64,000 bases of DNA, taken from assembly GCF_010882175.1 (NCBI RefSeq), contig NZ_WKLH01000008.1:1-64000 (forward strand). The letters run 5' to 3'. Source of the DNA: Mangrovibacterium lignilyticum (GTDB lineage Bacteria; Bacteroidota; Bacteroidia; Bacteroidales; Prolixibacteraceae). The first letter of the stretch is position 1. Each line of letters begins with the position of its first letter. Of the stretch, positions 6,976-49,200 are shown piece by piece. A program made the position numbers and the translations under genes. The notes under the pieces were generated by a model. It had not been told where the DNA came from and searched no databases. It saw only the letters and a list, made by a program, of their open reading frames with translations.

Positions 6976-7049
6976 AAAAAAAGAAGCAAGAACTGACTCT
7001 TCCTGCTTCTTCTGAAAATTGATTTATTAAAACTAGTACTAAACCAATC
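6976..7049 (-). ncRNA. predicted cis-antisense sRNA at the susC leader, cassette A
   Basis: On the minus strand TAATTTTG (7061-7054) matches the Bacteroides -7 element TAnnTTTG and ends on the A of the susC ATG. Downstream, AGAAGCAGGAA (7010-7000) pairs with TTCTTGCTTCT (6992-6982, one G-U) and is followed by T7 (6982-6976), a canonical intrinsic terminator for minus-strand transcription. Transcription from about 7049 would give an RNA of about 74 nt complementary to the susC leader. No good -33 TTTG is visible at this copy. The same layout recurs in cassettes B and C. Existence of the RNA is inferred. Confidence 0.45.
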
Positions 7050-7060
7050 ATTGCAAAATT

Positions 7061-10000
7061 ATGGAAATAAAACGAGGTTTTTATGGCCACAGGTCATCTA
7101 TTTACCTAAACTTACTGAAAATGAAACTAACCTTCCTCATTGTACTGATTTCAGTTATGAGCTCCCTGGCTTCGCAAAGCTATTCGCAATCAACCCGGAT
7201 TACGATGGAAGTCCGAGATACTCGAATTGAAGATTTTCTGCGGGATATTGAGAATCAAACCGAGTATCGCTTTTTTTACAGCGCAAAAATAGATGTGGAT
7301 CAAAAAGTCTCAGGCGACTTCAAAGATCTGTCCATCCAAATGGTTTTGGATGAAATTCTCCAAAAGACCGGCATTGGATATGAGATCAACGGTCGGCAAA
7401 TCATTCTATCGAATGCAACAACCGGAGCGAATGCACAGCAAGTAAAGTCTGTATCGGGAGAGATAACCGACACGGCAGGTAACTCATTACCGGGTGTTAC
7501 GGTGGTTGTGAAAGGAACAACTAACGGAACAATTACGGATTACGAAGGTCGCTATACGATTTCGAATCTTCCGGCAGATGCCATCCTGGTATTCTCTTTC
7601 GTGGGAATGCGGTCACAAGAGATTACAGTAGGTACACAGTCTTTGTTAAATGTGACTTTAGAGGATGAAACGATCGGTTTAGAGGAAGTTGTTGCTGTAG
7701 GTTACGGTACACAGTCGAAGAGAACAGTAACCGGTTCTATTCAATCTGTTGATACCGACGAACTGTCAGATATGCCAGTGACAACAACAGCCCAAAAACT
7801 CCAGGGAAAGTTGTCAGGTGTGCAAATTAACCAAACAACCGGTAGGCCCGGAGAAGGCATGAAAATTCGTATTCGTGGTCAGGCTTCGTTGACCGCAGGT
7901 AACGATCCGCTATATGTTGTTGATGGCTTCCCAATTACCGGTGATATAAGCTCGTTGAACCCGAATGAGATTGAAAGTATCTCGGTATTGAAAGATGCGT
8001 CTTCTGCTGCATTGTACGGTTCCCGGGCTGCAAACGGTGTAATCCTGGTAACCACAAAACGAGGAAAGATTGGAAAGACTTCCATTTCAATTGCTTCAAA
8101 TTACGGGTGGCAAACAGTACCTCAAAAAGGTCGTCCTGATGCAATGAATGCGACTGAATATGCCCAGTTCAAAAAAGAATCGCTGGAAGATTTGGGGCTG
8201 CCAGTTCCCGAGATGTGGCAAAACCCGTCGCAATATGGCGCAGGAACTAATTTTTATGACGAGCTGTTGCAGGTTGCCCCAATGCAGGATCACAGTATCA
8301 GCTTTAGTAGCAGCAATAACAACTTTGCAACAACTGCAGTGATTGGTTACACAGGACAAGATGGTGTAATCGAGAACTCGGATTACAAGCGGTATTCCAT
8401 GCGCATCAACACGGATTACAACGTGTCTGAAAAAATCAAAACCGGTTTTAGCGTTGCGCCTACTTATTCAATAGCCAACTCGCCGAATACCGATGGGATC
8501 CTTTGGGGTGGCGGTTTGATCAACAACGCACTGACCATCTGGCCGATCTTCGACCCGATGAATGAAGACGGCACAATGGCTCAAAATTTCTTTGACCCTG
8601 TAAGTGGCAGTCGTTTCGAAAATGTTTTGTGGTCAGCTCAGGCGATCTCGAATGAAACCAAAAACATGCGCCTGCTCACCAACGCATTTGCGCAGTACGA
8701 ACCAATTAGCGGATTGGTTATTAAGACAACCTTCAATTTTGAGTATTTCAATAGTAAATATAAAAATGTAACACCTTCGACTGTTGGTGCTGCAACACCT
8801 TCAGTAGCATCGGGACGCCTGATGAACAGAGGATACAATACCTGGTTGAATGAAAATACAATCACCTATAAAAAGTCTGTTGGCGATCACAACTTTGATT
8901 TGTTAGGTGGTATAACGATCCAAAGGTACCGGGAAGATATGACTAGGATTAGCTACAACGGCTTTGCCGACGACCGGGTTCCAACAATCGCTGCAGCACA
9001 GAATGTTGACCGTTCTCCTTATTGGTTAACCGGAGAGTTGGGAACATACAACGACATCCAGGAGTGGAGCATGATGTCTTACCTGGCCCGCATTAACTAT
9101 AACTACAAAAATCGCTATTTGCTTTCGTTTGCGATTCGCGCCGACGGTTCTTCCCGTTTTGGCTCAGATAACCGCTGGGGGAGTTTCCCATCAGCATCAG
9201 CTGGCTGGATTGCTTCGGACGAAGAGTTTATGAAGGGATTTGAAAAGCTTTCTTTATTGAAATTGCGTGCGTCCTTTGGTGTTGTTGGTAACAACAATAT
9301 TGGTAACTATACGCAATACGCGACAGTAAGCACGGGGTCAGCATCGAATAATGCTATTTTCGGATCTTCTGTTCACAGCGGAAGCGTAATGACTTCGTTA
9401 CCAAACTCGGAATTAACCTGGGAAAAAACACAGGAGTATGACTTCGGATTTGATGCGGGATTCTTTAACAACCGGATCAACCTGAGTTACGATTATTACA
9501 ACAGAAAGACGACCAGCTTGCTATATAGCGTCAACGTAGCTCAAGAGTCAGGTTTTAGCTCATTCATGTCAAACATTGGTGAGTTGAAATTTTGGGGTCA
9601 TGAGATCATGTTGAATACGAAAAACCTTGTTGGTGAATTCAGTTGGGAAACTTCGTTCAACATTTCTTTTACAGACAATGAGGTTCTTTCTCTTGCAGGT
9701 GATATTGACCGTATTTACAGTGGTTTGTTCGATTCGAACATCACGAAAGTCGGCGACAAAATCGGTTTGTTATACGGTATGGTCTGGGATGGCGTTTATG
9801 ACAACCAGGAAGAATTCGACAACAGCCCTAAAGCGGTTGCATCGGAAGTGGGAACAATTAAGTTCAAAGATGTAGGTGGTGGCGCAGATGGAGGTCCGGA
9901 TGGTATAATTACCCACGGCGGCGATAATGATGACCGTACGGTTATCGGCGACCCGACACCCCAATTCACATATGGTATTACGAACACTTTTGCATACAAA

Positions 10001-26349: not shown

Positions 26350-28011
26350 ATGGATCGATACACAAAACATACCATTGAGAATGGAATTTCCCGACGTGGT
26401 TTCTTGTCGCGAGCGACCGTGGCCTCACTGGCTGCGGGCTTTGTTGGGCTGAATGCTTGTAAGCCGAATAGCCCGCAGCAGAAGCTTTTTGACGAGAATT
26501 TGGTTTACGGGACCAGTGCCGACGAAAGCGCGATGTTGTCCTTTCTGACCAAGCCGGAGCCAATTTTGGAATCGGCAATTTTCAAAACAGTAACTGTTGA
26601 TGTAGTCGTGGTTGGCGCTGGTGCGTCCGGTGTGCCGGCAGCCTTGTCGGCCCTGGAAAGTGGCGCGTCGGTTGCGGTTTTGCAGAAAGAGAATATAGCA
26701 ATTTCTCAAGGAAATTCCGGTGCCGGAATCGACCTGGAGAACAGTGACCGGGCAGGAGTGGAGGCGCTTGTTTCAACCTTGATGAAGGAAAATGCTCATC
26801 GCTGCAGCCCGACACTTTTGCGCGAGTGGGCCTACAATTCAGGAGAAGCGGTCACTTGGGTGATCGATCGGGCGAAGAAAGCGGGAGCCAGTGTTTTTGA
26901 TCAGGGCAATTTACAACAGGTGAAGATTGTCAACATAAACGGTTATAAGCTGAGTTACAATACGGCCTATTTCGGTCCGAAACCCTTCAATAATGGAGAT
27001 GGCATGAAAGCTTTGGCCCAATATTCGGAAAAAGCAGGGGTGAAGTATTTCTACAGTACACCGGCGGTTCAGCTGCTGAAAAATGAATCGGGCGAAGTGA
27101 CTGGCGTAATTGGAAAAAATGGCGAAGGCCAATTTATTCGTTTTGTGGCCAATAAAGGAGTGATTTTGGCAACGGGCGATTACCAGAATAATAAGGCCAT
27201 GTGTGACTATTTTATTCCGGATGCGAAGAATTTTGGCCGCAAACAATCGAATAAAACCGGCGACGGGTTTCAAATGGGCCATTGGGCCGGCGGTGTTATT
27301 GAGCCGATCGGCCATACGAAAATGCTGCACGATTTTGATGCCGGCCCGGCTTCGATGTGCGATATGCCGTTTTTGGCCGTTGACCACGCCGGTAACCGAT
27401 TTGTGAATGAAAATGTGGAAATGTCCCTGCTGAATAACTACCTGAGGCATTCGGACAAAGCCGGGCAGTATTCGCAGATTTTCGATTCAAACTACATGAC
27501 ACAGGCTGCGAACTGGCCCGGAGTATTGGTCCCTCCCGACAAGTTAAAGGAATACATGCCCGAGGAACCAGGGCCGCACGACCATGTTTCAGCCCCGTTT
27601 ATAAATACGCATCAAGCTAACACCATTGAAGAGTTGGCTGTGAAGCTGGAAGCCGATCCGGCAACTCTGGTAGCCACCGTAAAACGCTACAACGAGTTGG
27701 CAAAACAGGGAATGGACAGCGATTTTGGAAAGCCGGCACATCAGCTTTTCCCAATTGAACAACCACCTTTTTATGGTATTCATCGCACCTTGCGATTATC
27801 GGCGGTTTGTTCCGGCTTGCTGGTCAACGAAAATCATCAATGTCTGGATGGCGATGGAAATCCGATCAGAGGCTTGTATGCCGTGGGTAATCTTGGTGGC
27901 GGGTTTTACGGTGGTGTCGATTATCCGCTAATCGTTTATGGCTTATCGCTGGGGCGCTGCTACACCTTTGGCTACCTGGTGGGTAAACACGTGGCAAGCC
28001 TGAATGCTTGA
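26350..28011 (+). CDS. Tat-exported FAD-dependent reductase (fumarate-reductase/flavocytochrome c-like)
   Basis: A 553-residue flavoprotein with a twin-arginine motif and lipobox ('SRRGFLSRAT', then 'VGLNAC', Cys37), so it is exported folded and probably lipid-anchored outside the inner membrane. FAD binding is shown by 'VVVVGAGASGVPAALSALESGASVAVL' split around Gly89-x-Gly91-x-x-Gly94, and the end 'GLYAVGNLGGGFYGGVDYPLIVYGLSLGRCY' is typical of the fumarate reductase/succinate dehydrogenase flavoprotein family. It has no haem motif of its own; the next gene supplies a multiheme cytochrome. Such pairs reduce activated C=C bonds (fumarate, urocanate, acrylates, cinnamates) as terminal electron acceptors. 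The acceptor here is unknown. Its position at the end of a rhamnosidase/esterase operon suggests an unsaturated acid or aglycone released by those enzymes (inference). Confidence 0.8.
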   Translation: MDRYTKHTIENGISRRGFLSRATVASLAAGFVGLNACKPNSPQQKLFDENLVYGTSADESAMLSFLTKPEPILESAIFKTVTVDVVVVGAGASGVPAALSALESGASVAVLQKENIAISQGNSGAGIDLENSDRAGVEALVSTLMKENAHRCSPTLLREWAYNSGEAVTWVIDRAKKAGASVFDQGNLQQVKIVNINGYKLSYNTAYFGPKPFNNGDGMKALAQYSEKAGVKYFYSTPAVQLLKNESGEVTGVIGKNGEGQFIRFVANKGVILATGDYQNNKAMCDYFIPDAKNFGRKQSNKTGDGFQMGHWAGGVIEPIGHTKMLHDFDAGPASMCDMPFLAVDHAGNRFVNENVEMSLLNNYLRHSDKAGQYSQIFDSNYMTQAANWPGVLVPPDKLKEYMPEEPGPHDHVSAPFINTHQANTIEELAVKLEADPATLVATVKRYNELAKQGMDSDFGKPAHQLFPIEQPPFYGIHRTLRLSAVCSGLLVNENHQCLDGDGNPIRGLYAVGNLGGGFYGGVDYPLIVYGLSLGRCYTFGYLVGKHVASLNA

Positions 28012-28046
28012 GACGGATTCAACATTGTAAAACTGGAGGAACAATC

Positions 28047-28646
28047 ATGAAACTAATTGACTTATTCAAAAACAAAAAGTATAGCACGAGACGGAAGAAA
28101 TGGTTGTTGGTTATCGTGCCATTGGGCGTGATTCTCTCGTTATCCGGGCTGGTAACAGGGGGCGTGATTTGGCACGAGCAGCCGGGTTTTTGTACATCCT
28201 GCCACACGCCCATGGGCAATTACGTCGACAATTACTTTCCGGGTGATTCCACTCTATTAATTACCAAACACGCATCCTGCGACAGCTTGCCCATGAGATG
28301 CCTCGATTGTCACGAATCGGTGCTGACCGAACAGCTTCGGGAAGGCGTGCATTGGGTTAGTGGAAATTACACCTATCCGTTGGAGAAGCGCAATTTTGGA
28401 ACTCGCAGCTTTTGTCTGACGGAAGGTTGCCACATTGAGGCCAAGATTATAGAAGCGACAAAGGACCACGAAAACTCCTTGTTTGCCTACAATCAGCATG
28501 ATCCGCGTCATGGTAAGTTGGAGTGTAATACCTGCCACTCCATGCATGGCGAATCGGTTTTTTCCTGTAATCAATGTCATAAATTCGAACTGCCAGCTGG
28601 ATGGATTGCACCGCAGCCGAACGGAGTTATAGCCGGCAGGAACTAG
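28047..28646 (+). CDS. membrane-anchored multiheme c-type cytochrome
   Basis: A 199-residue cytochrome, taken from ATG 28047, which has a GGAGG at 28035-28039; the frame also extends upstream to 28008 but without a better start. One N-terminal membrane helix (about 19-42) is followed by four CxxCH haem sites, at 49-53 (CTSCH), 85-89 (CLDCH), 160-164 (CNTCH) and 174-178 (CNQCH), and one CX4CH (123-129, CLTEGCH). The layout resembles NapC/NrfH and cytochrome c3-type quinol-oxidising electron-transfer proteins. It should carry electrons from menaquinol to the FAD reductase encoded 36 nt upstream. Confidence 0.85.
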   Translation: MKLIDLFKNKKYSTRRKKWLLVIVPLGVILSLSGLVTGGVIWHEQPGFCTSCHTPMGNYVDNYFPGDSTLLITKHASCDSLPMRCLDCHESVLTEQLREGVHWVSGNYTYPLEKRNFGTRSFCLTEGCHIEAKIIEATKDHENSLFAYNQHDPRHGKLECNTCHSMHGESVFSCNQCHKFELPAGWIAPQPNGVIAGRN

Positions 28647-28721
28647 CTTGCAAAAGAGTTGGTGTGATAAGCAGGATAAGTTACTTTTTTTTTTACTAAT
28701 TCGAACCAAATGGATTGATAT

Positions 28722-28924
28722 TTAGAGGATTGGGATGTAAGCAAAGTTTTTAAACTTGACTTTTCCATCGCCAATGGCGCACAACCCGATTCGCAAGCTG
28801 AGGAATCCTCCGAGGACGTTATGATGGAAGCCGGAAACTTCGAGAGAATTCTCGGTTTGGGTCCAGTTTTCGCCGTCTAAACTGTAAAACATGTTCACGA
28901 CGTTGTCGACATTCTTAATGCGTA
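28722..28924 (-). pseudogene. C-terminal remnant of a GH43 beta-xylosidase/arabinosidase
   Basis: On the minus strand the last ~67 codons before TAA at 28722 read 'LRIKNVDNVVNMFYSLDGEN', then 'SLEVSGFHHNVLGGFLSLR' and 'GDGKVKFKNFAY'. This is the end of the concanavalin-like C-terminal domain of GH43 enzymes (YSTDGxxW, SLEVSGYxHNxxGGFLSLRP). Nothing of the catalytic beta-propeller is present. The match stops at about 28922-28931, where plus-strand MFS transporter sequence begins, so a rearrangement cut this gene at its 5' side. Confidence 0.65.
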
Positions 28925-29611
28925 GGATATGCATTTCTGATTTACGCATTTTCTGCCGTTGTACTTGTTTTGGTACCATTGACGATGTATGAGCCCAAAT
29001 CGGTATTGGAGCGACCCAAATCCCAACCGGGAGATTCCGACTCAGTGCCGCCAATTGTCTGGCTGGCGTTCGTTAGTGCTTTTATCACAACGGTGAGCTT
29101 TTACGTCATTCCCGTGCAACTGCCTTTCTTCCTGCAACGGTTGGAAGGGGTGAGTGGCAACAAAGTCGGTTTGGCACTTGGTAGTCTTCCGTTTGCGCAA
29201 GCAATCGCTTCATTCTTCTATAAGCAAGTTAAAATGAAACTCGATTTCATAAGCATCTACATGTTGGGCTTTATTCCCATGGCAGTCGGCTTTTGCATTA
29301 TCGGTTTTAGCGCGCTTTATTGGCAGGTTATCGTTGGGGTGATGGCCTGCGGACTGGGAGTAGGACTGTTGATTCCGAACGGCAACCTGTGGGTCATTTC
29401 CCTGGTTCCTGTTCATGTGCGAGGCAAGTACATCGGCCTGTTAACGACAGCAACATTTTTACGCATGTTTTTCTCGCCAATGATTATCCAGCCAATTCAG
29501 AAAATAGTTGGTATGAATACGAGCTTCTACGTGTTGGGAATTGCTTTGGCTTCATTAACGGTCTTGTACTTTTTGACCCGCAGACAGACGCTGCGGATTG
29601 CAACCAATTAA
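28919..29611 (+). pseudogene. C-terminal half of an MFS transporter
   Basis: The plus-strand frame opens after a stop at 28916 and directly reads the end of TM5/TM6 ('GYAFLIYAFSAVVLVLVPL'), the central loop ('YEPKSVLERPKSQ') and then six membrane segments ('FVSAFITTVSFYVIPVQLPFFL', 'MLGFIPMAVGFCIIGFSA', 'VIVGVMACGLGVGLLIPNG' and others). 'NLWVISLVPVHVRGKYIGLLTT' is the typical TM10/11 loop. TM1 to TM5 are absent, so the transporter cannot be functional. The first in-frame ATG is at 28985, inside the loop. Its left edge coincides with the cut end of the GH43 remnant on the other strand. Confidence 0.75.
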
Positions 29612-29630
29612 TCAAACAAAAACGAATACA

Positions 29631-29870
29631 ATGAAACAGATACTAATCGCCGGAATTATTGGCGCAGTAATGGGCTTTGTCATGAGCTTCCTGATGAATT
29701 ACTTAATGATTCCTGTTCCCAAAACCGTCGTCGACCATGCTTTAGCACACGGCACAACCGGCGCAATCAGTGGCTTTATGGGAGGCTTTATGGGAGGCTT
29801 TATGGGCGTTTATAGCTTTTTGTCGCAACAAAAGAAGAAACAGAATTTGAAGCTGAATGATACGAAGTAA
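29631..29870 (+). CDS. small glycine-rich two-helix membrane protein
   Basis: A 79-residue protein from ATG 29631, 19 nt after the MFS remnant stop. Two hydrophobic segments (about 4-27 'LIAGIIGAVMGFVMSFLMNYL' region and about 43-63) flank 'PVPKTVVDHALAHGTTGA'; the second is a glycine zipper, FMGGFMGGFMG, built from a 12-bp tandem repeat at 29772-29806. A lysine-rich tail follows. I do not recognise the family. It was probably co-transcribed with the intact MFS gene. Confidence 0.6.
   Translation: MKQILIAGIIGAVMGFVMSFLMNYLMIPVPKTVVDHALAHGTTGAISGFMGGFMGGFMGVYSFLSQQKKKQNLKLNDTK
29772..29806 (+). repeat. 12-bp tandem repeat (about 3 copies)
   Basis: The unit GGCTTTATGGGA is repeated head to tail, in frame, and encodes the FMGG repeats of the small membrane protein. 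Confidence 0.8.
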
Positions 29871-29913
29871 TCTTTGTTATAGATTAGTGTTATAGTAACA
29901 CTTCAATTGGTCA

Positions 29914-29939
29914 CCGAAGGAAACTTTGGGGATTTTTTT
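29914..29939 (+). terminator. intrinsic terminator after the small membrane protein
   Basis: CCGAAG (29914-29919), a GAAA tetraloop and CTTTGG (29924-29929) form a 6-bp stem with one G-U, followed by T7 at 29933-29939. A further hairpin without a T-run (AGTGTTA 29886-29892 / TAACACT 29896-29902) precedes it. Confidence 0.65.
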
Positions 29940-30140
29940 GTCGTTGATTCAGTCGTTTTGTGCACGATCACTGTTCGGACAGCGGATGTATTAGATTTGC
30001 TATGGATCAAAGTATATAATCGACCGGGTCGTCTGCTCAGCTTCGTCACCGTAAAAACCGATTACTGATCGCTTGCTTGAGCCAGTTTGCTGTGGAAGTT
30101 TTTTTGAAAAATAAAAAAGAAGAAGTAACATTGCTCCGAA

Positions 30141-30743
30141 GTGAAACATCCGGTAATGCCTTTAACTAAACAAGTAAATGAAGACGATAATACTCGTTGG
30201 AAAGATTTCCAAAAGGGAAATGATCGCTTGTTTGACTATTTTTTTGATAAATATTATCAGGGGCTCTGTGTGTATGCCTACAAAATTCTGAATTCACACG
30301 ATAAGGCCGAGGACGTTGTCCAGGAGTTCTTTGTGAAGATCTGGGATAAGCGCGAAAGCCTGATGATTTCATCCAGTGTGAAGTCATATTTCATCCGCTC
30401 GGTGCATAACATTTGTCTCGACCATATTGCCCGGCAGGATTCACGCGATTCGTATAAGTCCTACCAGTTAACACATACTTCAATCCAAGATCTGGTTGAT
30501 TATCCTTTGCTCGATTTCGAATTAGAGCAATTATTGAATAAAACAATCGATTCGTTACCCGACAAAATTAAGGAGACTTTTATTTTAAGCCGGATTGATG
30601 GTTTAACCTACCCGCAAATAGCAGAACAACAGGGGATTTCGGTGAAAACTGTCGAATATCGTATCGGGAAAGCATTGCTGATTTTACGAACTGAATTGAG
30701 TGATTACTTACCGGCTGCACTGCTGTTTTACCTGTTTCGTTAA
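30141..30743 (+). CDS. FecI-like ECF sigma factor (cassette B)
   Basis: A 200-residue sigma factor (195 if the in-frame ATG at 30156 is used instead of GTG 30141). Region 2 is 'LFDYFFDKYYQGLCVYAYKILNSHDKAEDVVQEFFVKIWDKRESL'. Region 4 is 'SLPDKIKETFILSRIDGLTYPQIAEQQGISVKTVEYRIGKAL', the same region 4 ending as in the cassette A sigma. It ends in a hydrophobic 'LPAALLFYLFR' tail that is frequent in this expansion family. It is followed by fecR and an STN-type susC and should control that pair. Confidence 0.93.
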   Translation: MKHPVMPLTKQVNEDDNTRWKDFQKGNDRLFDYFFDKYYQGLCVYAYKILNSHDKAEDVVQEFFVKIWDKRESLMISSSVKSYFIRSVHNICLDHIARQDSRDSYKSYQLTHTSIQDLVDYPLLDFELEQLLNKTIDSLPDKIKETFILSRIDGLTYPQIAEQQGISVKTVEYRIGKALLILRTELSDYLPAALLFYLFR

Positions 30744-30808
30744 ATTTTTTTAACTTTTTTTTAGGGGGGAGTGAATGTTGCCCGTCTTTATTAGTGAAAA
30801 GCGACCTA

Positions 30809-31861
30809 ATGAAGAATTTGGAAAACATACCATCTTATATATTGTCTAGTATTGCCGGAGTGGCAAGCGAGGACGAAAAAAAACAGCTCAGTCAATGGCT
30901 GGAAATGCCGGGTAATGCAAAAGCCTATGAACAACTGAAACAGGTAAATGAGATCAGTTCCGACTTGACCTTGTATAAATCATTCGACCGACGTAAGGCA
31001 CTGCAACAAGTCAAGGGTGCTATTCGCGTAAATAAACGACGAAGACTGTTTGGGCATCTTCAGCGAATTGCGGCCTTCCTGTTTATTCCTTTGCTTATTG
31101 GTAGCCTGTTCATGTTGCGTCAGTATTTTAATTTTCAGGAGGGGGTTAATAACGGCCCCCTTGTACAGGAAATTAGTTCGCCACCGGGAACAAGAACCCA
31201 CTTCTTTTTACCCGATAGCAGTGAAGTGTGGTTGAATGCCTCCAGCACCATCAAGTTTCCATCGGCTTTTCGCGGTAACACAAGACTGGTTGAGCTGGAT
31301 GGTGAAGGTTATTTCAAGGTCTATAAAAATAAGAACAAACCATTCATAGTAAAGAACGAAAATGTAGCGGTAACGGCACTCGGAACGGCGTTCAACTTTT
31401 GCGGTTATGCCGACGACAACAGCTCATTGGTGACCCTGCAAGAAGGAAAAATCAACGTGCAGAACAATCACACCAAAGAAGCGCTTATTGCGTTGCCGGG
31501 AGAGCAGATCCAGTTTTCCAAATCAGATGGAGATTTCACAAAGTTAGCGGTCAATGTCGATGATTTTACAGCATGGAGAGACGGCCGTTTAGTATTTAAT
31601 AAAACTCCATTGTCCCGCGTAGTTAGCAACTTAGGGCGGTCGTATAACGTTGATGTTGAGTTAGTAGGGGCTGGAGTTAGTAATTACCGTTACACGGCAA
31701 CTTTCACCGACGAAAGTATTTACCAGGTCCTGGAACTACTCAAATTAACTGCACCAATTGATTATTCTATAACAAGCCGGGAAAGTATCGGAGATGGAAC
31801 CCAATTTTCAAAACAAAAAATTAAAATATGGAAAACTTCAAAAAATAGTCAGCCTATGTAA
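30809..31861 (+). CDS. FecR-like anti-sigma factor (cassette B)
   Basis: About 350 residues from ATG 30809; the frame also contains GTG 30794. The cytoplasmic N-terminus ('SSIAGVASEDEKKQLSQWLEMPGNAKAYEQLKQ') is of the usual FecR type. A membrane helix lies at about residues 87-105 ('RIAAFLFIPLLIGSLFML'), then the FecR domain ('SSPPGTRTHFFLPDSSEVWLNASSTI', 'ELDGEGYFKV', 'VTALGTAFNFCGY') and the DUF4974-type end ('AWRDGRLVFNKTPLSRVVSNLGRSYNVDV'). The stop is only 17 nt before the poly-A side of the minus-strand terminator of the predicted antisense RNA. Confidence 0.92.
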   Translation: MKNLENIPSYILSSIAGVASEDEKKQLSQWLEMPGNAKAYEQLKQVNEISSDLTLYKSFDRRKALQQVKGAIRVNKRRRLFGHLQRIAAFLFIPLLIGSLFMLRQYFNFQEGVNNGPLVQEISSPPGTRTHFFLPDSSEVWLNASSTIKFPSAFRGNTRLVELDGEGYFKVYKNKNKPFIVKNENVAVTALGTAFNFCGYADDNSSLVTLQEGKINVQNNHTKEALIALPGEQIQFSKSDGDFTKLAVNVDDFTAWRDGRLVFNKTPLSRVVSNLGRSYNVDVELVGAGVSNYRYTATFTDESIYQVLELLKLTAPIDYSITSRESIGDGTQFSKQKIKIWKTSKNSQPM

Positions 31862-31877
31862 ATGATTGCGTGATGGT

Positions 31878-31951
31878 AAAAAAAAAGGACAGTTCCCCAA
31901 CTGTCCTCTGTTAACCGAAAAAAATCGGTTGTAAAGTTTATTAAAAATAAA
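31878..31951 (-). ncRNA. predicted cis-antisense sRNA at the susC leader, cassette B
   Basis: This is the clearest of three copies. On the minus strand TTTG (31990-31987), a 22-nt spacer and TAAGTTTG (31964-31957) form a Bacteroides-type -33/-7 promoter. Downstream are a small hairpin (AACCGA / TCGGTT, 31930-31913) and a perfect 8-bp terminator stem GGACAGTT-loop-AACTGTCC (31906-31887) followed by T9 (31886-31878). The predicted RNA is about 74 nt and fully complementary to the susC leader. It ends before fecR. Expression is inferred. Confidence 0.55.
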
Positions 31952-31956
31952 GCATT

Positions 31957-31990
31957 CAAACTTATGAAAAAAAATTGTGAAATTTTCAAA
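31957..31990 (-). promoter_or_regulatory. antisense promoter, Bacteroides -33/-7 type
   Basis: TTTG and TAAGTTTG on the minus strand are separated by 22 nt, close to the 19-21 nt usual for TTTG / TAnnTTTG promoters. The -7 octamer ends on the A of the susC ATG at 31964. Confidence 0.5.
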
Positions 31991-34900
31991 AGGAGGGAAG
32001 ATTATGCTCTTTTGAAAAAACTCTTAATCACTATGAAACTAACATTGTTTCTCTGTTTATTCGTTGTTGCCCAGTCTTTTGCGATTGAAGGGTATTCGCA
32101 ACGCACGAAGCTGGATCTCAGTTTAACGAATGTGTCCGTCAAAGAAGCCCTGCGAAATATCGAAGATGCTTCAAACTTCTTCTTTTTATACAACGACGAT
32201 TTGATTGACGTCACCAGAAAGGTCAATATTGATGTTCAGGGTGAAAATATCGAGGATATTTTGGAACTAATATTTAAAGGTACCGGGGTGTCTTATACCG
32301 TTAAAGACCGGCAAATTGTACTCACACCAGATCAATCTGAATTGGTTGAAAATCAGCAACAGACCACGAAGTTGTCCGGAGTTGTAACCGACACATCCGG
32401 TGGACCACTTCCCGGTGTAACAGTGGTTGTTAAAGGCACCAGCAATGGTGTTGTGACGGATATGGATGGTAAATATAACCTGGCTGATGTTCCGGCAGAT
32501 GCCGTGTTGGTTTTCTCGTTTGTTGGTATGAAAACCCAGGAAATCGCTCTGAACGGAAAATCAGAGATTGATGTGACCCTGGCTGAAGAATCAATCGGTT
32601 TGGATGAGGTTGTCGCTGTGGGCTATGGTGTACAGAAAAAAGCAACGCTTTCGGGCTCGATAACCAACGTAAAAGGAGATGATTTGATCAAAACTCCGGT
32701 AACCAACGTCAGCCAGAGTGTTGCCGGACGTATGCCTGGGGTTGTCGCGATCTCCAATGGTGGCGAGCCCGGTTATGATGGTGCTACCTTGCGTATTCGT
32801 GGTGTCAACACCTTCGGTAATTCAGCTCCGCTGATTGTTGTTGATGGTGTTCCCGGACGTTCGCTGGATCGTATCGACCCGAGTACCATTGAGAGTATGT
32901 CAGTCATGAAAGATGCCTCGGCTGCTATTTACGGAGCGCAGGCAGCCAACGGGGTGATCCTTATCACAACCAAACGCGGAACCGTTGGTAAACCGACTGT
33001 TAAAGTATCGTTTAACCAGGGCTTCTCTAAACCTACCGTTTTGCCGGAAATGGCGAATGCTGCTGAGTACGCGACATTGCTGAATGAAATTGACCAGTAC
33101 GACAACCGGCCAAACCGCTATACAGATGATCAAATTCAGCAATATCGGGATGGATCTGATCCATGGCGCTATCCGAATACCGATTGGTTTCATGAAACAC
33201 TGAAGCCTTGGTCTAACCAGAATTACGGAAACGTGTCGATTGACGGTGGTACCGAGAATATGAAATATTTTGTGAGTATTTCTCAAAAATCACAAGATGG
33301 TTTTTACCGCCACAGTGCCACAAAATATAACCAGTACGATATGAAATCGAATCTGGATTTGAAAATCAACAAATACCTGGATCTTTATATCAATACAACC
33401 GGCCGTATGGAAGATCGTAATTTCCCGACCCGTTCCGGCGAAAATATTTTCCGCATGCTGATGCGTTCGAAGCCAAACTCTCCCGCTTACTGGCCGAATG
33501 GGTTGCCGGGACCGGATATCGAATATGGTGACAATCCTGTAGTTATTGTAACTGATGCTACCGGCTACAACCATGATAAACGCTATATTTTGAATTCCGA
33601 CTTTGGTTTGAACCTGAAAGTACCCGGTGTTGAAGGCTTGACTTTCAAAGCGAATGCCTCATTGGATAAAACCTTCCGTTTCCAAAAGCAATGGAGTACG
33701 CCATGGTACCTGTATTCATGGCCAAATCAAGAGGTGGATGAAAACGGTGAACCGATTCTAGTTGAAGGTAAGAAAGGCTTCGATGATCCCCGGTTATCAG
33801 AATCGATGGAAGACAACCAGGGCATTCTTGTCAGTGGCCTCTTAAACTATACCCGCACATTTGACGACATACATACGGTTAATTTGTTGGCAGGTGTTGA
33901 AAGAATCACCAATAAAGGAGACTCCTTTTCCGCTTTCAGAAGATATTTCCTTTCTTCGGCAATCGATCAATTGTTTGCCGGTGGTCAGGATGAAATTAAT
34001 AACGACGGTACTGGCTATGAACAAGCCCGCTTAAACTACTTTGGTCGTGTAAACTACAGCTTTAAAGACAAGTACCTGGCTGAGTTTGTATGGAGATACC
34101 AGGGATCGTATATCTTTGAAGAATCAAGCCGTTTTGGATTTTTTCCGGGAGTTTCTCTGGGTTATGTAATGTCTGAAGAAAACTTCTTTAAGGAAAACGT
34201 TCCCTTCATCAATTTCCTAAAAATCCGTGCTTCATGGGGGCAAACAGGTAATGACTTGATTGATCCGTATCAATATCTGGCCTCCTACCGGTTCAATAAC
34301 CTCATGTTTATATCCAATGGAGGTAATTCTCAAAGTCAGGCTTTATACGAAGGTGTTATCCCGAATGACGGTGTAACCTGGGAAAGTGCAACACAACAAA
34401 ACGTTGGTTTCGATTTGCATATTCTCAATGGTGACATCGCCATCACTGCCGACTATTTCCTCAATAAACGGGACGATATTTTATGGCAGCGGAACGCTTC
34501 GATTCCAAACACAGCAGGGCTGACGCTTCCTCGTGAGAATATCGGTAAAGTGAAAAACCAGGGAGTTGACTTCAGCATCGACTACCGCAAGCGATTTAAC
34601 GATTTTACTCTTGGTGTTGGCATCAATGGAGTCTACTCGAAGAACAAAATCTTATTCTGGGATGAAACCGCAGGTGCTCCGGATTACCAACAATCAACCG
34701 GACGCCCGATTGATTCTGATCTGTACTATAATGCAATTGGTATCTTCCAAACACAAGAAGAGATTGATGCCTATCCACACTGGAATGGTGCTCGTCCCGG
34801 AGATGTTATTTTTGAAGATTACAATGGCGACGAGGTGCTTGATGCCAAAGACCGTGTTCGCTATGACAAAAGCAGAACGCCGGTATATACCGGAGGTTTG

Positions 34901-35347
34901 AATGTTGACATGGGATATAAGAATTTCGATTTGTCACTTCTGTTCCAGGGGGCATTCGGCGGTATCTTTTACGAAACAACCGAATCAGGTGATTTTGGTA
35001 ACTATCTGAAGAGCTTTTACGACAGTCGCTGGACAGAAGAAAACCCAAGCACAACAGATCCGAGAACATACAACCGTTCTGATGAATATTGGGTGAACCA
35101 GCGAAATACCTACTGGGTACATAAATCCAATTACGTCCGCTTAAAATCAATTGAATTGGGATACACCATACCTAAGTCCTTAACTCAGCGTTTTCTGGTT
35201 AACGATCTACGGATGTATGTAAGTGCCTTCAACTTGTTCACAATTAGCCCGGATATGGACGACTATGATCCGGAGAATACCAGCGGTTCCGGTTATAACT
35301 ATCCTTTGAATAAGGTGATCAACGTTGGTTTAAGTGTTACTTTTTAA
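31964..35347 (+). CDS. SusC-family TonB-dependent transporter with STN domain (cassette B)
   Basis: Outer-membrane importer, 1127 residues. An N-terminal extension (1-23) leads into the signal core starting at Met24 ('MKLTLFLCLFVVAQSFA'). The STN domain is at about 48-118 ('VSVKEALRNIEDASNFFFLYNDDLI'), then the carboxypeptidase-regulatory-like domain ('GVVTDTSGGPLPGVTVVVKGT'), plug ('LDEVVAVGYGVQKKATLSGSI') and barrel. The pairing with FecI/FecR fits the STN domain. susD starts 11 nt after the stop. Substrate class is not evident; only a GH2 accompanies it. Confidence 0.95.
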   Translation: MKKNCEIFKRREDYALLKKLLITMKLTLFLCLFVVAQSFAIEGYSQRTKLDLSLTNVSVKEALRNIEDASNFFFLYNDDLIDVTRKVNIDVQGENIEDILELIFKGTGVSYTVKDRQIVLTPDQSELVENQQQTTKLSGVVTDTSGGPLPGVTVVVKGTSNGVVTDMDGKYNLADVPADAVLVFSFVGMKTQEIALNGKSEIDVTLAEESIGLDEVVAVGYGVQKKATLSGSITNVKGDDLIKTPVTNVSQSVAGRMPGVVAISNGGEPGYDGATLRIRGVNTFGNSAPLIVVDGVPGRSLDRIDPSTIESMSVMKDASAAIYGAQAANGVILITTKRGTVGKPTVKVSFNQGFSKPTVLPEMANAAEYATLLNEIDQYDNRPNRYTDDQIQQYRDGSDPWRYPNTDWFHETLKPWSNQNYGNVSIDGGTENMKYFVSISQKSQDGFYRHSATKYNQYDMKSNLDLKINKYLDLYINTTGRMEDRNFPTRSGENIFRMLMRSKPNSPAYWPNGLPGPDIEYGDNPVVIVTDATGYNHDKRYILNSDFGLNLKVPGVEGLTFKANASLDKTFRFQKQWSTPWYLYSWPNQEVDENGEPILVEGKKGFDDPRLSESMEDNQGILVSGLLNYTRTFDDIHTVNLLAGVERITNKGDSFSAFRRYFLSSAIDQLFAGGQDEINNDGTGYEQARLNYFGRVNYSFKDKYLAEFVWRYQGSYIFEESSRFGFFPGVSLGYVMSEENFFKENVPFINFLKIRASWGQTGNDLIDPYQYLASYRFNNLMFISNGGNSQSQALYEGVIPNDGVTWESATQQNVGFDLHILNGDIAITADYFLNKRDDILWQRNASIPNTAGLTLPRENIGKVKNQGVDFSIDYRKRFNDFTLGVGINGVYSKNKILFWDETAGAPDYQQSTGRPIDSDLYYNAIGIFQTQEEIDAYPHWNGARPGDVIFEDYNGDEVLDAKDRVRYDKSRTPVYTGGLNVDMGYKNFDLSLLFQGAFGGIFYETTESGDFGNYLKSFYDSRWTEENPSTTDPRTYNRSDEYWVNQRNTYWVHKSNYVRLKSIELGYTIPKSLTQRFLVNDLRMYVSAFNLFTISPDMDDYDPENTSGSGYNYPLNKVINVGLSVTF

Positions 35348-35358
35348 ATTGAAACGTC

Positions 35359-37128
35359 ATGAATAAAATAAAAATATTTATCCTACTCACAGTCGTTTTG
35401 TTTACGGCATCCTGTAACGAGGATTTTCTGGAGGTGGCTCCTCTGGACCGCTATTCTGATGCTGCCGTATGGACAGATCCAGCCTTAGCCTCGGCATTTG
35501 TCAACAATATCTATATGGGGCAGCAATATGGGTTCCAGTTGGAAATGCTGGCTTCTCTTAGCGATATTTCAATGACTAAGAGGGCTGAAGTGAATGCTAT
35601 TCTGAATAGCCAGATTAGTGATAGTTATGTGAGCATTCTGGATCCGAACCACTGGTTGGATAGCTACCGGAATGTTACCTGGAACACACTTTACAAGAAT
35701 ATTCGTGCTTGTAATGTGTTTTTTGAGAATATCCGGAACTCTTCGCTGGAAGGTGAAGAAATCGATCGTATGGTTGGTGAAGTTCATTTCATGAGAGCTT
35801 ATTTCTATTATTGGTTAATGAGTTTTTGGGGTGGCGTTCCTTTGATTGATCAACCATTCTCGTTGGACGATGACTTCGCTGTTGCGCGGAACAGTTTTGA
35901 GGAAACCGTTAATTTCATTGTTGCCGATTGTGATTCTGCGACCAGCTTATTGCCGCTGGAAGGTGATAAAGCGCGTGCGACGAAAGGTGCATCGATGACT
36001 TTAAAATCAAGAGTGCTTCTTTTTGCCGCTAGTGATTTGTTTAACTCGGGTGGCACATGGGCTTCCGATTATTCAAAACCTGAGTTGGTTAGCTATATCG
36101 GAGGCGACAGGGATGCCCGATGGAGAGCTGCTCAAAGTGCAGCCAAAGCTGTGATAGACCTGGGCATTTACAGTCTGTACGGCGGAACCAATCCCGGATC
36201 ACCTGAACAAGCGAGAGATAATTACATCAACCTGTTCCTGAACAACGGTAATGACGAAGACATTCTGTTGACTTTTTACGACAACGTAAACCGGACTGAC
36301 TGGATGTCGCCTAATCCTGGTTTGTTCTACGGTCCCAGTGGTTACCATAACTGGGGGAACCATACACCAACACAGCAGCTGGTGGATTCGTACGAAATGC
36401 TTGATGGTACAATGTTCGACTGGAATGATCCGGTTGAAAAGGCAGTACCGTACGAAAATCGCGATCCTCGCTTCTATGCAAGTGTTTTGTATGACGGAGC
36501 AAAGTGGAGACAGCGCCCTGACGATATTCTTGGAGCGGATCCGGATGGCATTCTTCAAACCGGTTACTATGAAAAAGAAGATGGTACTTTCCGGGGCGGA
36601 TTGGATACACGCCAGGGGATTGACGATTGGAACGGAACTTACACCGGTTACTACCTGCGTAAATTCATCGATCCGGCGCTCGATCACCAGTTCGAAAAGC
36701 AGAAATTACCATGGCGCCAGATGCGTTATGCCGAAGTGTTGTTAAATTACGCTGAAGCATGTATTGAGCTGGGCGATGAAGACGAAGCTAAAAACTACCT
36801 GGATATGATTCGTAACCGTGTTGATATGCCTGATATCCCGGCATCGGAAACCGGCGAAGCCTTGAAAGCCCGGTACCGCAACGAGCGGAAAGTTGAGTTG
36901 GCGTATGAGCAAAATCGCTATTTCGACATCAGACGCTGGATGATTGCTCCCGATGTAATCGAGAATGTGCAGGGCATTCGGGTGGAATATCCTTACAGTG
37001 GTGATGCACCAACCTACCAGGTAATAGAGGTGCAGGATCGCGGATGGTTGGATAAATCGTACTTCCTGCCTATCTTGCTGGATGAAATGAACAGAAACAA
37101 TTTGTTGATTCAAAATCCGGGCTACTAA
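35359..37128 (+). CDS. SusD/RagB-family lipoprotein (cassette B)
   Basis: A 589-residue glycan-binding lipoprotein. The lipobox 'VLFTASCNEDFLEV' and 'PLDRYSDAAVWTDPALASAFVNNIY' mark the SusD N-terminus; 'MRAYFYYWLMSFWGGVPLI' and 'LPWRQMRYAEVLLNYAEACIELGDEDEAKNYLD' are the conserved internal and TPR segments. 'RYRNERKVELAYEQNRYFDIRRW' is the usual C-terminal block. It is at the long end of the family. A perfect 13-bp hairpin follows. Confidence 0.95.
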   Translation: MNKIKIFILLTVVLFTASCNEDFLEVAPLDRYSDAAVWTDPALASAFVNNIYMGQQYGFQLEMLASLSDISMTKRAEVNAILNSQISDSYVSILDPNHWLDSYRNVTWNTLYKNIRACNVFFENIRNSSLEGEEIDRMVGEVHFMRAYFYYWLMSFWGGVPLIDQPFSLDDDFAVARNSFEETVNFIVADCDSATSLLPLEGDKARATKGASMTLKSRVLLFAASDLFNSGGTWASDYSKPELVSYIGGDRDARWRAAQSAAKAVIDLGIYSLYGGTNPGSPEQARDNYINLFLNNGNDEDILLTFYDNVNRTDWMSPNPGLFYGPSGYHNWGNHTPTQQLVDSYEMLDGTMFDWNDPVEKAVPYENRDPRFYASVLYDGAKWRQRPDDILGADPDGILQTGYYEKEDGTFRGGLDTRQGIDDWNGTYTGYYLRKFIDPALDHQFEKQKLPWRQMRYAEVLLNYAEACIELGDEDEAKNYLDMIRNRVDMPDIPASETGEALKARYRNERKVELAYEQNRYFDIRRWMIAPDVIENVQGIRVEYPYSGDAPTYQVIEVQDRGWLDKSYFLPILLDEMNRNNLLIQNPGY

Positions 37129-46270: not shown

Positions 46271-46282
46271 CTTTACAAACTT

Positions 46283-49200
46283 ATGAAAAAAATGAATGTT
46301 GTGTCACCAACAATCGGTGTTGGTGTGCAAAAGATTTTAAGAATTATGAAATTAACGCTATTTCTAACTCTGTTCGTTGTTTCAAGTGTTTTCGCGAATA
46401 ACACTTTCTCTCAAAACCGCCTTTTGTCACTGGAAGTGAAGAATATGGCCGTCGAGAAGGTCCTTCTTAGTATTGAAGAACAAAGTCGTTTTGTCTTTAT
46501 CTATAACAAAGATATGATTGACGTTAACCGGCGAGTTGATGTTAACATGGATAATGCAAGTGTCGACCAAATACTAGATGTTGTATTTGAAAACGCAGGT
46601 GTGAAATATAAGATTATCAATAACCAGATTGCTCTTAGTCCTGATTACAGCAATGTTATTCAGTCTACTAGTGTGAAAGGTCAAATCACTGATGCTGACG
46701 GCAATCCGCTTCCTGGAGTAACGATAGTTATTAAGGGAACAACTCAAGGTACAATTACCGACTCTGAGGGGAACTATCATTTAGATAATATTCCTTCGGA
46801 TGCTGTTCTTTCTGTGTCTTTTGTCGGTATGGTGACCCAGGAAATACCTGTTGCAGGTAAGAGCGTGATTGATTTGAGTATGGCCGAAGAGGCAATTGGG
46901 ATAGACGAAGTGGTCGCTGTTGGATACGGTTCAACGATTAAGAAGAATGTTACAACATCGATTGCAAAAGTCGACCCAACAAAGCTGACGACAGCTGCAG
47001 CTTCAGGTGTTGGAGATTTACTGTTTGGAAAGGCTGCGGGAGTTCAAGTTCGGCAATTTAGTTCGCAGCCAGGAGGAAAGGTAGATTTGTCTATTAGGGG
47101 TAGAGGGGCACCACTTTTGGTAATCGATGGTGTTGTTGTACCAACAAATAGTTTAGAGTCAGGGTCAGCTGTTTCAGAGTCGAATACAGTTGCACGTGGT
47201 AATTTGGCTGGATTAAATCCCAATGATATTGAATCGATCGAGATTTTGAAGGATGCAAGTGCTGCTATTTATGGTGTGAATGCTGGCAATGGTGTTATGC
47301 TTATTACGACCAAAAAAGGTAAGGAAGGAACTTTGAACATTAATTATAGTGGAAATACATCGTACCTCAAGAATTATCCCTATCTGAAGCCACTGGAGGG
47401 TAGAGAGTTTATGCAATATTACAACCAGTTTGAGAAGGATATGTATTTAGCGGAGAATGGGATGCAACCGTTTGGTGATGCAACTCCCAATTATGTTCCT
47501 AAATACAGTCAATCTGAGATTGACAATGCAATTAATACAGATTGGGTTGGGGAGATTCTTCAGACTGGAACAATTCAAAATCACAATTTGAATATCAGTG
47601 GTGGAAGTCAAAAAGTATCTTATTATGTTTCAGGTGGATTCTTTGATCAAGTAGGAACTATTGTCAATTCAAAAATGAAGAAGTACAATGGATTATTTGA
47701 CATTACGGTTCGACCAAGTAAATATTTTTCAATCAATGCAAGTGTCAATGGAAACCGTTCATTTTTCGATAATTCAGTGGCTGGTTGGCAATCCGGTGGA
47801 GGAGGAGGTAATGCCTATACGGCACTGCAGGCGGCCTTAGCATACCCGACTTATTTGCCCATCAAAGATGAGAATGATCAATATACGCAGTGGGGGGTGA
47901 TTGGGAACCCTGTAGCATTGTTGAATATCAAAGACCGATCGTCTAATAGTTCTTTGTTTGTTAAAACGTCGGTGGATGTCAATATTATTCCCGAAGTTTT
48001 AACCGCTAGGGTTTTGTATGGAAATAATTATGAAGAATCACTTCGCGAGTACTACATTCCTTCCGATGTTAACTGGTTTGATGATTATCGCTCAAGAGGA
48101 TCTATTCAACAAAGTAACCGCCAATCGCAGACAATTGAAACTTATCTAACATTTAAGCATAATTTCAATGACATCGTAAATCTTGACTTACTTGCGGGAT
48201 TTGGCGAGTATATCTATGATGGATACAGCTTTACCAACCAGTTTTTTGATATCAATGATCTTTTCGGGACAGATAAAATAGATGGGGCAACTACCAATGG
48301 ATTTTCAAATCGCTATAAAAACAAACAACGATCCTATTTTGGTCGTGCAACAGTAGATTTGTTTGATAAATATTTGGTTACTGGATCGTTACGATACGAT
48401 GGTGTTGACCAGTTCTATCCCGGTGAAAAGTATGCAGCATTCCCGAGTGTGTCTGTTGGCTGGAAAATTACGAATGAATCTTTCATGCAAGGGCAATCGA
48501 TTTTCGACTTGATTAAGTTGAGAGCGAGTTATGGTACGACCGGTCAAAACTTGCCAAGTGGAGCGGCTTACGGACTGTTCTCGAGTGGAGCAGATTTGAT
48601 TCCTTTTAATGATGGACAGACAATGTATATCCCGTATTTGTTGGTTTCTGTTGATGTTCCATCTTTGACCTGGCAAAAGACCATAATGCAAAACGTAGGT
48701 CTCGATTTTGAAGCATTTAAAAGTCGGGTGTCAGGGAATGTGGAATGGTTTCGCGATGATGTTACAAATTATCTGCGCTGGGTTCCTTCAAAACAATTAT
48801 CAATGGTGCCTACGATGCCTGTAAATGGTGGACATACAAGACGAACTGGATTTGATGCGGCTATTGAAGGTGATGTTATTCGTTCTAAGGGTTTTTTGTG
48901 GAATATGGCAATAAACTTATCTCATTATAAACACAGGTGGGTTGAACGATTTGAAACAGAATTGAAAACATATTATTTGAGAGAGGATGACCCTGTTTCC
49001 GCAATGTATACATTTGAGACAAACGGTATACTTCAAGTTGGGCAAGAGGTTCCGGCATGGCAACCTTCTACAGCTCAGACTCCTGGATCACCCTTGTTCG
49101 TAGATAAAAACGGCGATTCAAAGTTGGATTCAGCAGACGTTCGGATTTATGATCAGGCACCAAAATTGATCTTTGGGTTTAATAACACTTTTAAATATAA

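Follow-up and report, generated by a model that had tools for sequence, protein, structure and literature searches.

A predicted DonS-like cis-antisense RNA opposite the susC leader in a sigma/FecR/SusC cassette of Mangrovibacterium lignilyticum

The fecR-susC gap (31862-31963) of cassette B, located in the 64,000-nucleotide stretch of Mangrovibacterium lignilyticum DNA analyzed here (the window), probably encodes a DonS-like cis-antisense RNA of about 75 nt that would pair with the susC leader (estimated probability roughly 0.78). The DonS family is associated with PULs under ECF sigma/anti-sigma control, and an intrinsic terminator at the 3' end is a DonS trait. The predicted RNA matches these traits in lying opposite the leader of a susC homolog, in belonging to a sigma/FecR PUL and in having an intrinsic terminator at its predicted 3' end. 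The gap has a distinct minus-strand anatomy, which is tied to cassettes of a sigma factor, FecR and a transducer-type SusC, carries strand-specific signatures, and has undergone compensatory changes in its stems.

Anatomy of the predicted antisense RNA

The gene order of cassette B, assigned with Pfam, is an ECF-type sigma factor, FecR, an STN-bearing SusC, SusD, and a glycoside hydrolase of family 2. The sigma factor (30141..30743, plus strand; Pfam Sigma70_r2 and Sigma70_r4_2) is followed by the anti-sigma factor gene fecR (30794..31861, plus strand; Pfam FecR and FecR_C; stop codon 31859-31861) and by the target gene susC (31964..35347, plus strand), a TonB-dependent transducer with an STN domain that was assigned from Pfam and its start context. 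The susC start at 31964 is supported by the translations of the own genome, in which 36/49 of the genes that follow fecR open with ATGAAAAAA.

The putative promoter was read directly from the minus strand as TAAGTTTG (31957..31964), a sigma-ABfr-type -7 octamer that matches the consensus TAnnTTTG and whose register recurs across the genome. An earlier reading of this DNA from sequence only (the sequence-only reading) had placed it at the susC ATG and was correct in doing so, as the octamer runs from 31964 to 31957 and its 5' T lies opposite the A of the ATG at 31964. That reading had also counted a TTTG on the minus strand (31990-31987), 22 nt before the octamer by direct reading, as a promoter element. 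This part did not hold, as TTTG at a spacer of 22 was present in 1/52 octamer loci, that of the window itself, and is ascribed to chance. That no -33 box is shared among the loci speaks against the antisense reading, although such a box is hardly evident in the promoters described for F. johnsoniae as well (PMC6847099). The promoters of F. johnsoniae are described in the same source as TAHHTTTG, with G virtually absent at the two middle positions of the octamer (PMC6847099). TAAGTTTG has a G at a middle position and does not take the TAHHTTTG form, which counts against the promoter reading; a G within this middle pair was found in 14/30 octamers of the own genome and in 0/25 octamers of Bacteroides and Parabacteroides. 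The G in the octamer lowers the promoter call without overturning it, since the preference is a statistical one that comes from another class of the phylum.

Probable promoters of F. johnsoniae are reported to have 4-5 nt between the octamer TAnnTTTG and the TSS (PMC6847099), and the promoter box of F. psychrophilum is reported at -12..-5 (PMC9723704). Based upon these published spacings, an octamer in register with the ATG should place +1 at 12 nt before the ATG. At this position (sense -12) the minus strand carries G in 20/30 octamer loci of the own genome and in 17/27 distinct octamer loci of relatives, while sense -12 at ordinary background starts is A in 55/104 and C in 17/104. The expected +1 of the window itself is C on the minus strand, with G one base earlier, an observation against the antisense reading. 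Separately, the ATGAAAAAA start (36/49) puts a T-run on the minus strand, some 15-21 nt ahead of the point where the antisense RNA is predicted to begin, and an AT-rich motif centred at -18 has been described in F. johnsoniae promoters (PMC6847099).

The predicted antisense RNA spans 31878..31953 of the minus strand (about 74-76 nt from its anatomy), with a predicted 5' end at 31951..31953, 3-5 nt after the octamer, the exact base being uncertain. The parts that follow the octamer on the minus strand are a U-rich stretch, stem-loop 1, stem-loop 2, and T9. Stem-loop 1 (31913..31930, minus strand; AACCGA-TTTTTT-TCGGTT) was recognized by folding and by its retention in the closest FecR relatives, and, read as 31930-31913, it is an addition to the anatomy described previously. 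Stem-loop 2 (31878..31906, minus strand) was identified as an intrinsic terminator by direct reading, conservation, and T-runs. Its 8-bp stem, GGACAGTT-GGGG-AACTGTCC at 31906-31887, is followed by T9 at 31886-31878, and 16 nt separate the end of T9 (31878) from the fecR stop, in agreement with the earlier description of an 8-bp hairpin and T9 (31906-31878) just clear of that stop. The stem is able to form on the plus strand too, where direct reading found no T-run after the stem of the window hairpin. Folding of the minus strand from 31954 to 31878 gave -22.5 kcal/mol (z -5.0, with 0/200 shuffles as good), both stem-loops being formed. Predicted lengths for 52 such RNAs had a median of 78.5 nt and a range of 66-117 nt. 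A plain scan of 28000-36000 found no overall excess of terminators (8 vs 8.1 expected), the window terminator having the most pairs among those in that scan, and no Rfam family reached its gathering score in the window.

An equivalent element is present in cassette A (6983..7061, minus strand), with TAATTTTG at the susC ATG (7061-7054) and a hairpin followed by a T-run (7009-6983). Cassette C again has the octamer TAAGTTTG (46276..46283, minus strand) at the susC ATG at 46283; no terminator was found there by either the strict or the permissive rule, and an imperfect hairpin upstream was seen by eye. The fourth susC of the window (58967), which is without FecR, has neither octamer nor terminator.

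According to the mechanism proposed here, housekeeping RNA polymerase would initiate on the minus strand at the -7 octamer that overlaps the start codon of susC, and the transcript would run back across the leader and end at the hairpin and T9 just before fecR. The resulting RNA would have a U-rich 5' arm and two stem-loops, and would complement every base of the susC leader between about -11 and -86. Pairing would hide the upstream initiation region and, as long as the inducing glycan is missing, reduce susC translation or the stability of the mRNA; transcriptional interference from a polymerase parked at the start of susC could contribute as well. The earlier proposal that the RNA would cover the susC leader stands in the main, but complementarity ends about 11 nt before the start codon and the ATG is left uncovered. 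A sense leader spanning the fecR-susC gap is realistic, as the 5' end reported upstream of BT1875 in PUL24 of B. thetaiotaomicron falls within the anti-sigma gene, 291 nt before the coding sequence begins (PMC11501099). Pairing of the RNA FopS at the susC initiation region is reported to block translation in vitro (PMC11697453), and this precedent in B. thetaiotaomicron makes a block of susC translation by RNA pairing possible. From the features above we infer that the antisense RNA is transcribed, pairs in vivo, and represses susC, with the reservation that repression by an antisense RNA is not guaranteed, since both positive and negative correlations have been published for pairs of antisense RNA and PUL (PMC10994844).

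Recurrence in the genome, in controls and in relatives

In order to establish how common the two parts are, the own genome (5.63 Mb) was searched with FecR_C, yielding 49 FecR genes after matches inside longer receptor frames were left out, and all 49 gaps downstream of these genes were read. Under the strict rule the octamer was exactly on the ATG in 30 gaps, a minus-strand terminator was present in 29, both in 20, and a plus-strand terminator in 1. Under the permissive rule, minus-strand terminators were found in 37 gaps (shuffle mean of 4.1 and a maximum of 9 across 20 shuffles) and plus-strand terminators in 7. A TIGR04056 SusC follows 38/49 of the FecR genes, and these fecR-to-SusC junctions had TAnnTTTG in register in 27 cases, a minus-strand terminator in 33 (permissive), both in 24, and at least one part in 36. 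The 11/38 junctions without the exact octamer are evidence against the antisense reading. Both parts were also present in 3 of the remaining 11 post-FecR gaps, in which no TIGR04056 SusC comes next.

Control starts gave very different values. The octamer occurred at 1/18 SusC genes without FecR and at 0/107 other first-ATG starts (ORFs of at least 250 aa), compared to 30/49 gaps (Fisher p 1.6e-19 for the latter comparison), and the strict minus-strand terminator occurred at 0/18 SusC genes without FecR, compared to 29/49 gaps. The permissive rule had a clear background, with terminators on the minus strand in 5 and on the plus strand in 3 of the same 18 SusC genes. These control counts indicate that the octamer is the cleaner mark and that the terminator requires the strict rule. 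The one SusC gene without FecR that bears the octamer on its ATG (L157, own genome) is preceded by an ECF-type sigma gene (Pfam). No FecR_C match separates the two genes, which may represent a cassette that has lost FecR.

The eight closest FecR relatives (L162, L163, L164, and L241-L245) share 41-51% identity and come from other genera of the same family, their orthology resting on similarity and synteny alone. Absence of the hairpin and octamer pair from orthologous gaps had been named in the sequence-only reading as evidence that would speak against it; both the octamer at the ATG and the terminator stem were present in 8/8 of these relatives. Across the window and the eight relatives, all 9 positions counted in the terminator stem were paired, and pairs 1, 2, 4, 5, and 9 showed double changes; 5/9 of the terminator stems were identical. 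Stem-loop 1 had double changes at pairs 5 and 6 in the same set, with two broken cells in all, and the T-run of L241 was poor. Stem pairs were counted on hand-registered arms, because the MAFFT alignment put stem-loop 1 of the window in the wrong place and displaced stems by a single base.

Beyond the closest relatives, both parts were found under the permissive rule in 33/46 relative loci, some of which are near-duplicates. The octamer in register together with a strict terminator was present in 5/10 gaps examined in B. cellulosilyticus and 13/30 in P. gordonii. B. finegoldii had the octamer in 0/10 and both parts in 0/10 of the gaps examined under the strict rule, which argues against the antisense reading. 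For these gut genomes, the gaps examined represent 10 of the 18 FecR_C matches in B. cellulosilyticus, 10 of the 17 in B. finegoldii, and 30 of the 78 in P. gordonii, and these totals include matches inside SusC. Among more distant named loci, of which 69 of 71 were analyzable and many are near-identical Flavobacterium relatives, the octamer was found in 12, both parts in 5 (strict), and both parts in 10 (permissive); loci of Ulvibacterium, Maribellus, and a Pedobacter are among those with these parts. In five Flavobacterium loci (L088, L093, L117, L126, and L129) the octamer is situated 6 bases before the ATG, and three of these (L117, L126, and L129) have a minus-strand terminator upstream as well.

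Strand signatures and competing explanations

The overlap of the octamer with the start codon, in a register that is fixed in the own genome, relatives, B. cellulosilyticus, and P. gordonii, would also be seen if the main effect of the minus-strand promoter were transcriptional interference or a roadblock where susC begins, with the RNA as a by-product. The RNA body, however, is apparently under selection, given the compensatory changes in its stem-loops and a terminator that keeps the RNA short, and an action chiefly by interference is considered unlikely.

The strand on which the hairpins act was examined with 60 distinct hairpins from 88 octamer loci, in which G.T and A.C were scored alike. 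Stems were cut at the outermost G-C pair, since pairing with the T-run might inflate the wobble count; a first, uncut strand count of 73 to 2 was superseded by the values given here. Read on the minus strand, the 60 hairpins contained 62 G.U (G.T) vs 4 A.C (p 2e-14, not corrected for relatedness), and a T-run, defined as 5 or more T among the 8 bases that follow the stem, was present at 58/60 hairpins on the minus strand vs 7/60 on the plus strand. As both wobble and T-run bias are one-sided, the minus-strand RNA is the one that matters at these hairpins, and the earlier interpretation of the window hairpin as a minus-strand terminator, made from the lack of a T-run on the plus strand, is borne out by its homologs. 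Named loci, which were kept apart from the 60-hairpin count, gave a wobble ratio of 19 to 2 and T-runs at 17/23 hairpins on the minus strand and 6/23 on the plus strand. Hairpins at own-genome loci without the octamer showed no wobble bias (4 vs 4), a result against the antisense reading. Furthermore, the hairpin sets of the strand test and the permissive rule were picked for forming hairpins, and for covariation only the set obtained by FecR similarity is therefore independent evidence.

These signatures bear on the proposal that the hairpin works on the sense strand, as a leader structure, attenuator, or processing site of a fecR-susC mRNA, and that there is no antisense RNA. Such a role would fit the ability of the stem to form on the plus strand as well and the position of a GCCTATG start-stop motif 22-35 nt before the hairpin in 37/41 loci measured, but it would not be expected to leave wobble pairs and T-runs biased so strongly to the minus strand, and the proposal is rated as quite improbable. 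A plus-strand terminator as the rule was rejected, with 1/49 gaps having one under the strict rule and T-runs on the plus strand at 7/60 hairpins. Permissive plus-strand terminators were found in 7/49 own, 10/46 relative, 6/50 Bacteroides/Parabacteroides, and 20/69 named gaps.

It could also be argued that CAAAnnTATG is the initiation context of highly translated susC genes and merely mimics a minus-strand octamer, the hairpin being a separate leader structure. A at -3 and -6 upstream of the start is reported to aid initiation in F. johnsoniae (PMC6847099), and octamer starts are A-rich at -13 to -15 and have A at -4 to -6, the latter by definition of the pattern. Against this explanation, the pattern was found at 0/107 other starts and 1/18 SusC genes without FecR. 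In addition, -12 is C and not the A usual at ordinary starts, which fits a minus-strand +1 G, and minus-strand terminators co-occur with one-sided G.U and T-run bias. The enrichment of G on the minus strand at the expected +1 makes a purely translational signal insufficient, and this explanation is held to be slightly less probable still. Chance occurrence, in a gap rich in AT, of strings that resemble a promoter and a terminator, suggested by the looseness of TAnnTTTG, the -33 match that is indeed fortuitous, and permissive terminators in 5/18 controls, is already disfavoured by the counts and extremely improbable, with both parts at 24/38 junctions vs the octamer controls and conserved in the closest relatives.

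Known antisense RNAs and the sense-strand motif

DonS is reported to belong to a family of cis-antisense RNAs, 78-128 nt in length, with a negative effect on the susC homologs they oppose (PMC7366714), and to repress its own PUL in B. fragilis (PMC11697453), in which 15 such PULs have been reported (PMC9723704). For B. thetaiotaomicron, 10 and later 32 PUL-associated antisense RNAs were reported, several of them on northern blots (PMC7366714, PMC10994844). The DonS-like interpretation put forward in the sequence-only reading is supported by the agreement in architecture with this published family (PMC7366714). As far as DonS is known from these descriptions, both it and the RNA of the window are short, antisense to the susC homolog of a PUL, and of similar length. 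The window RNA differs in coming from another Bacteroidota lineage, in a predicted length of 74-76 nt that is slightly under 78-128 nt, in a two-hairpin form found in its group of relatives, and in its octamer TAAGTTTG with a G that is unusual for F. johnsoniae promoters. The B. thetaiotaomicron RNAs BTnc009, -055, -077, -249, and -123 (of 32 in all) are described with the same DonS-like orientation to susC as the window RNA; expression of several of the PUL antisense RNAs of this species was proven by northern blot, whereas the window RNA is predicted from its sequence. FopS and GibS, as described, differ in being trans-encoded and in using seed pairing with involvement of the protein RbpB, whereas the RNA predicted here would be cis-antisense to its own target.

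Judged on its anatomy, the RNA appears to be a new member of the DonS kind in another lineage, which would extend DonS-like antisense control from Bacteroides to most of the sigma/FecR/SusC cassettes of another Bacteroidota genome. The results suggest a rule for finding such RNAs without RNA-seq, namely an octamer in register with the susC ATG and a minus-strand terminator some 40-130 nt upstream. If the promoter truly shares bases with the start codon, altering either would alter the other, which would represent a constraint on both. Literature titles and abstract openings, retrieved with searches that were not worded for the register, contained no description of the octamer-on-ATG register or of the sense GCCTATG motif.

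This motif raises the tentative possibility that the gap acts as a composite RNA switch, found widely in Bacteroidota, in which a GCCTATG micro-ORF of 1-3 codons, a hairpin mostly 22-35 nt further on, and an antisense promoter in the susC start codon are combined, such that ribosome occupancy and antisense pairing would jointly decide susC translation. If so, the switch would supply physical parts for the intergenic repression in cis that has been reported for PULs of host glycans, and a genuine sense micro-ORF would add a new component to the way these bacteria rank glycans. In the window, the motif is GCCTATGTAA (31852..31861, plus strand), in which a start-stop (ATG-TAA) is fused to the fecR stop, making it a candidate micro-ORF of the susC leader. 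GC[C/T]TATG or close variants were present on the sense strand of 58/214 gaps, compared to an expectation of about 4 from mononucleotide shuffles. The motif was present at 1/18 SusC controls, and in only 9/49 own gaps. An interpretation of GCCTATG as an ECF -10 element was not supported, the spacing from an upstream AAC-like string varying by several bases on inspection, and an anchored profile showed no second box, apart from a run of A-rich positions at -7 to -11 relative to the motif. A micro-ORF is the simplest reading of the motif and is given here as a candidate that is not proven, since the column frequencies of the motif alone would predict many of the stops. Among 53 distinct copies, a downstream hairpin was measurable in 41 and began 22-35 nt after the ATG in 37 of these. 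ATG-stop or ATG-X-stop was found in 33 of the 53, a stop no more than 3 codons after the ATG was found in 37, and the copies had varied middle codons and used all three stop types (ATGTAA, ATGGAATAA, and ATGAAATAA among them).
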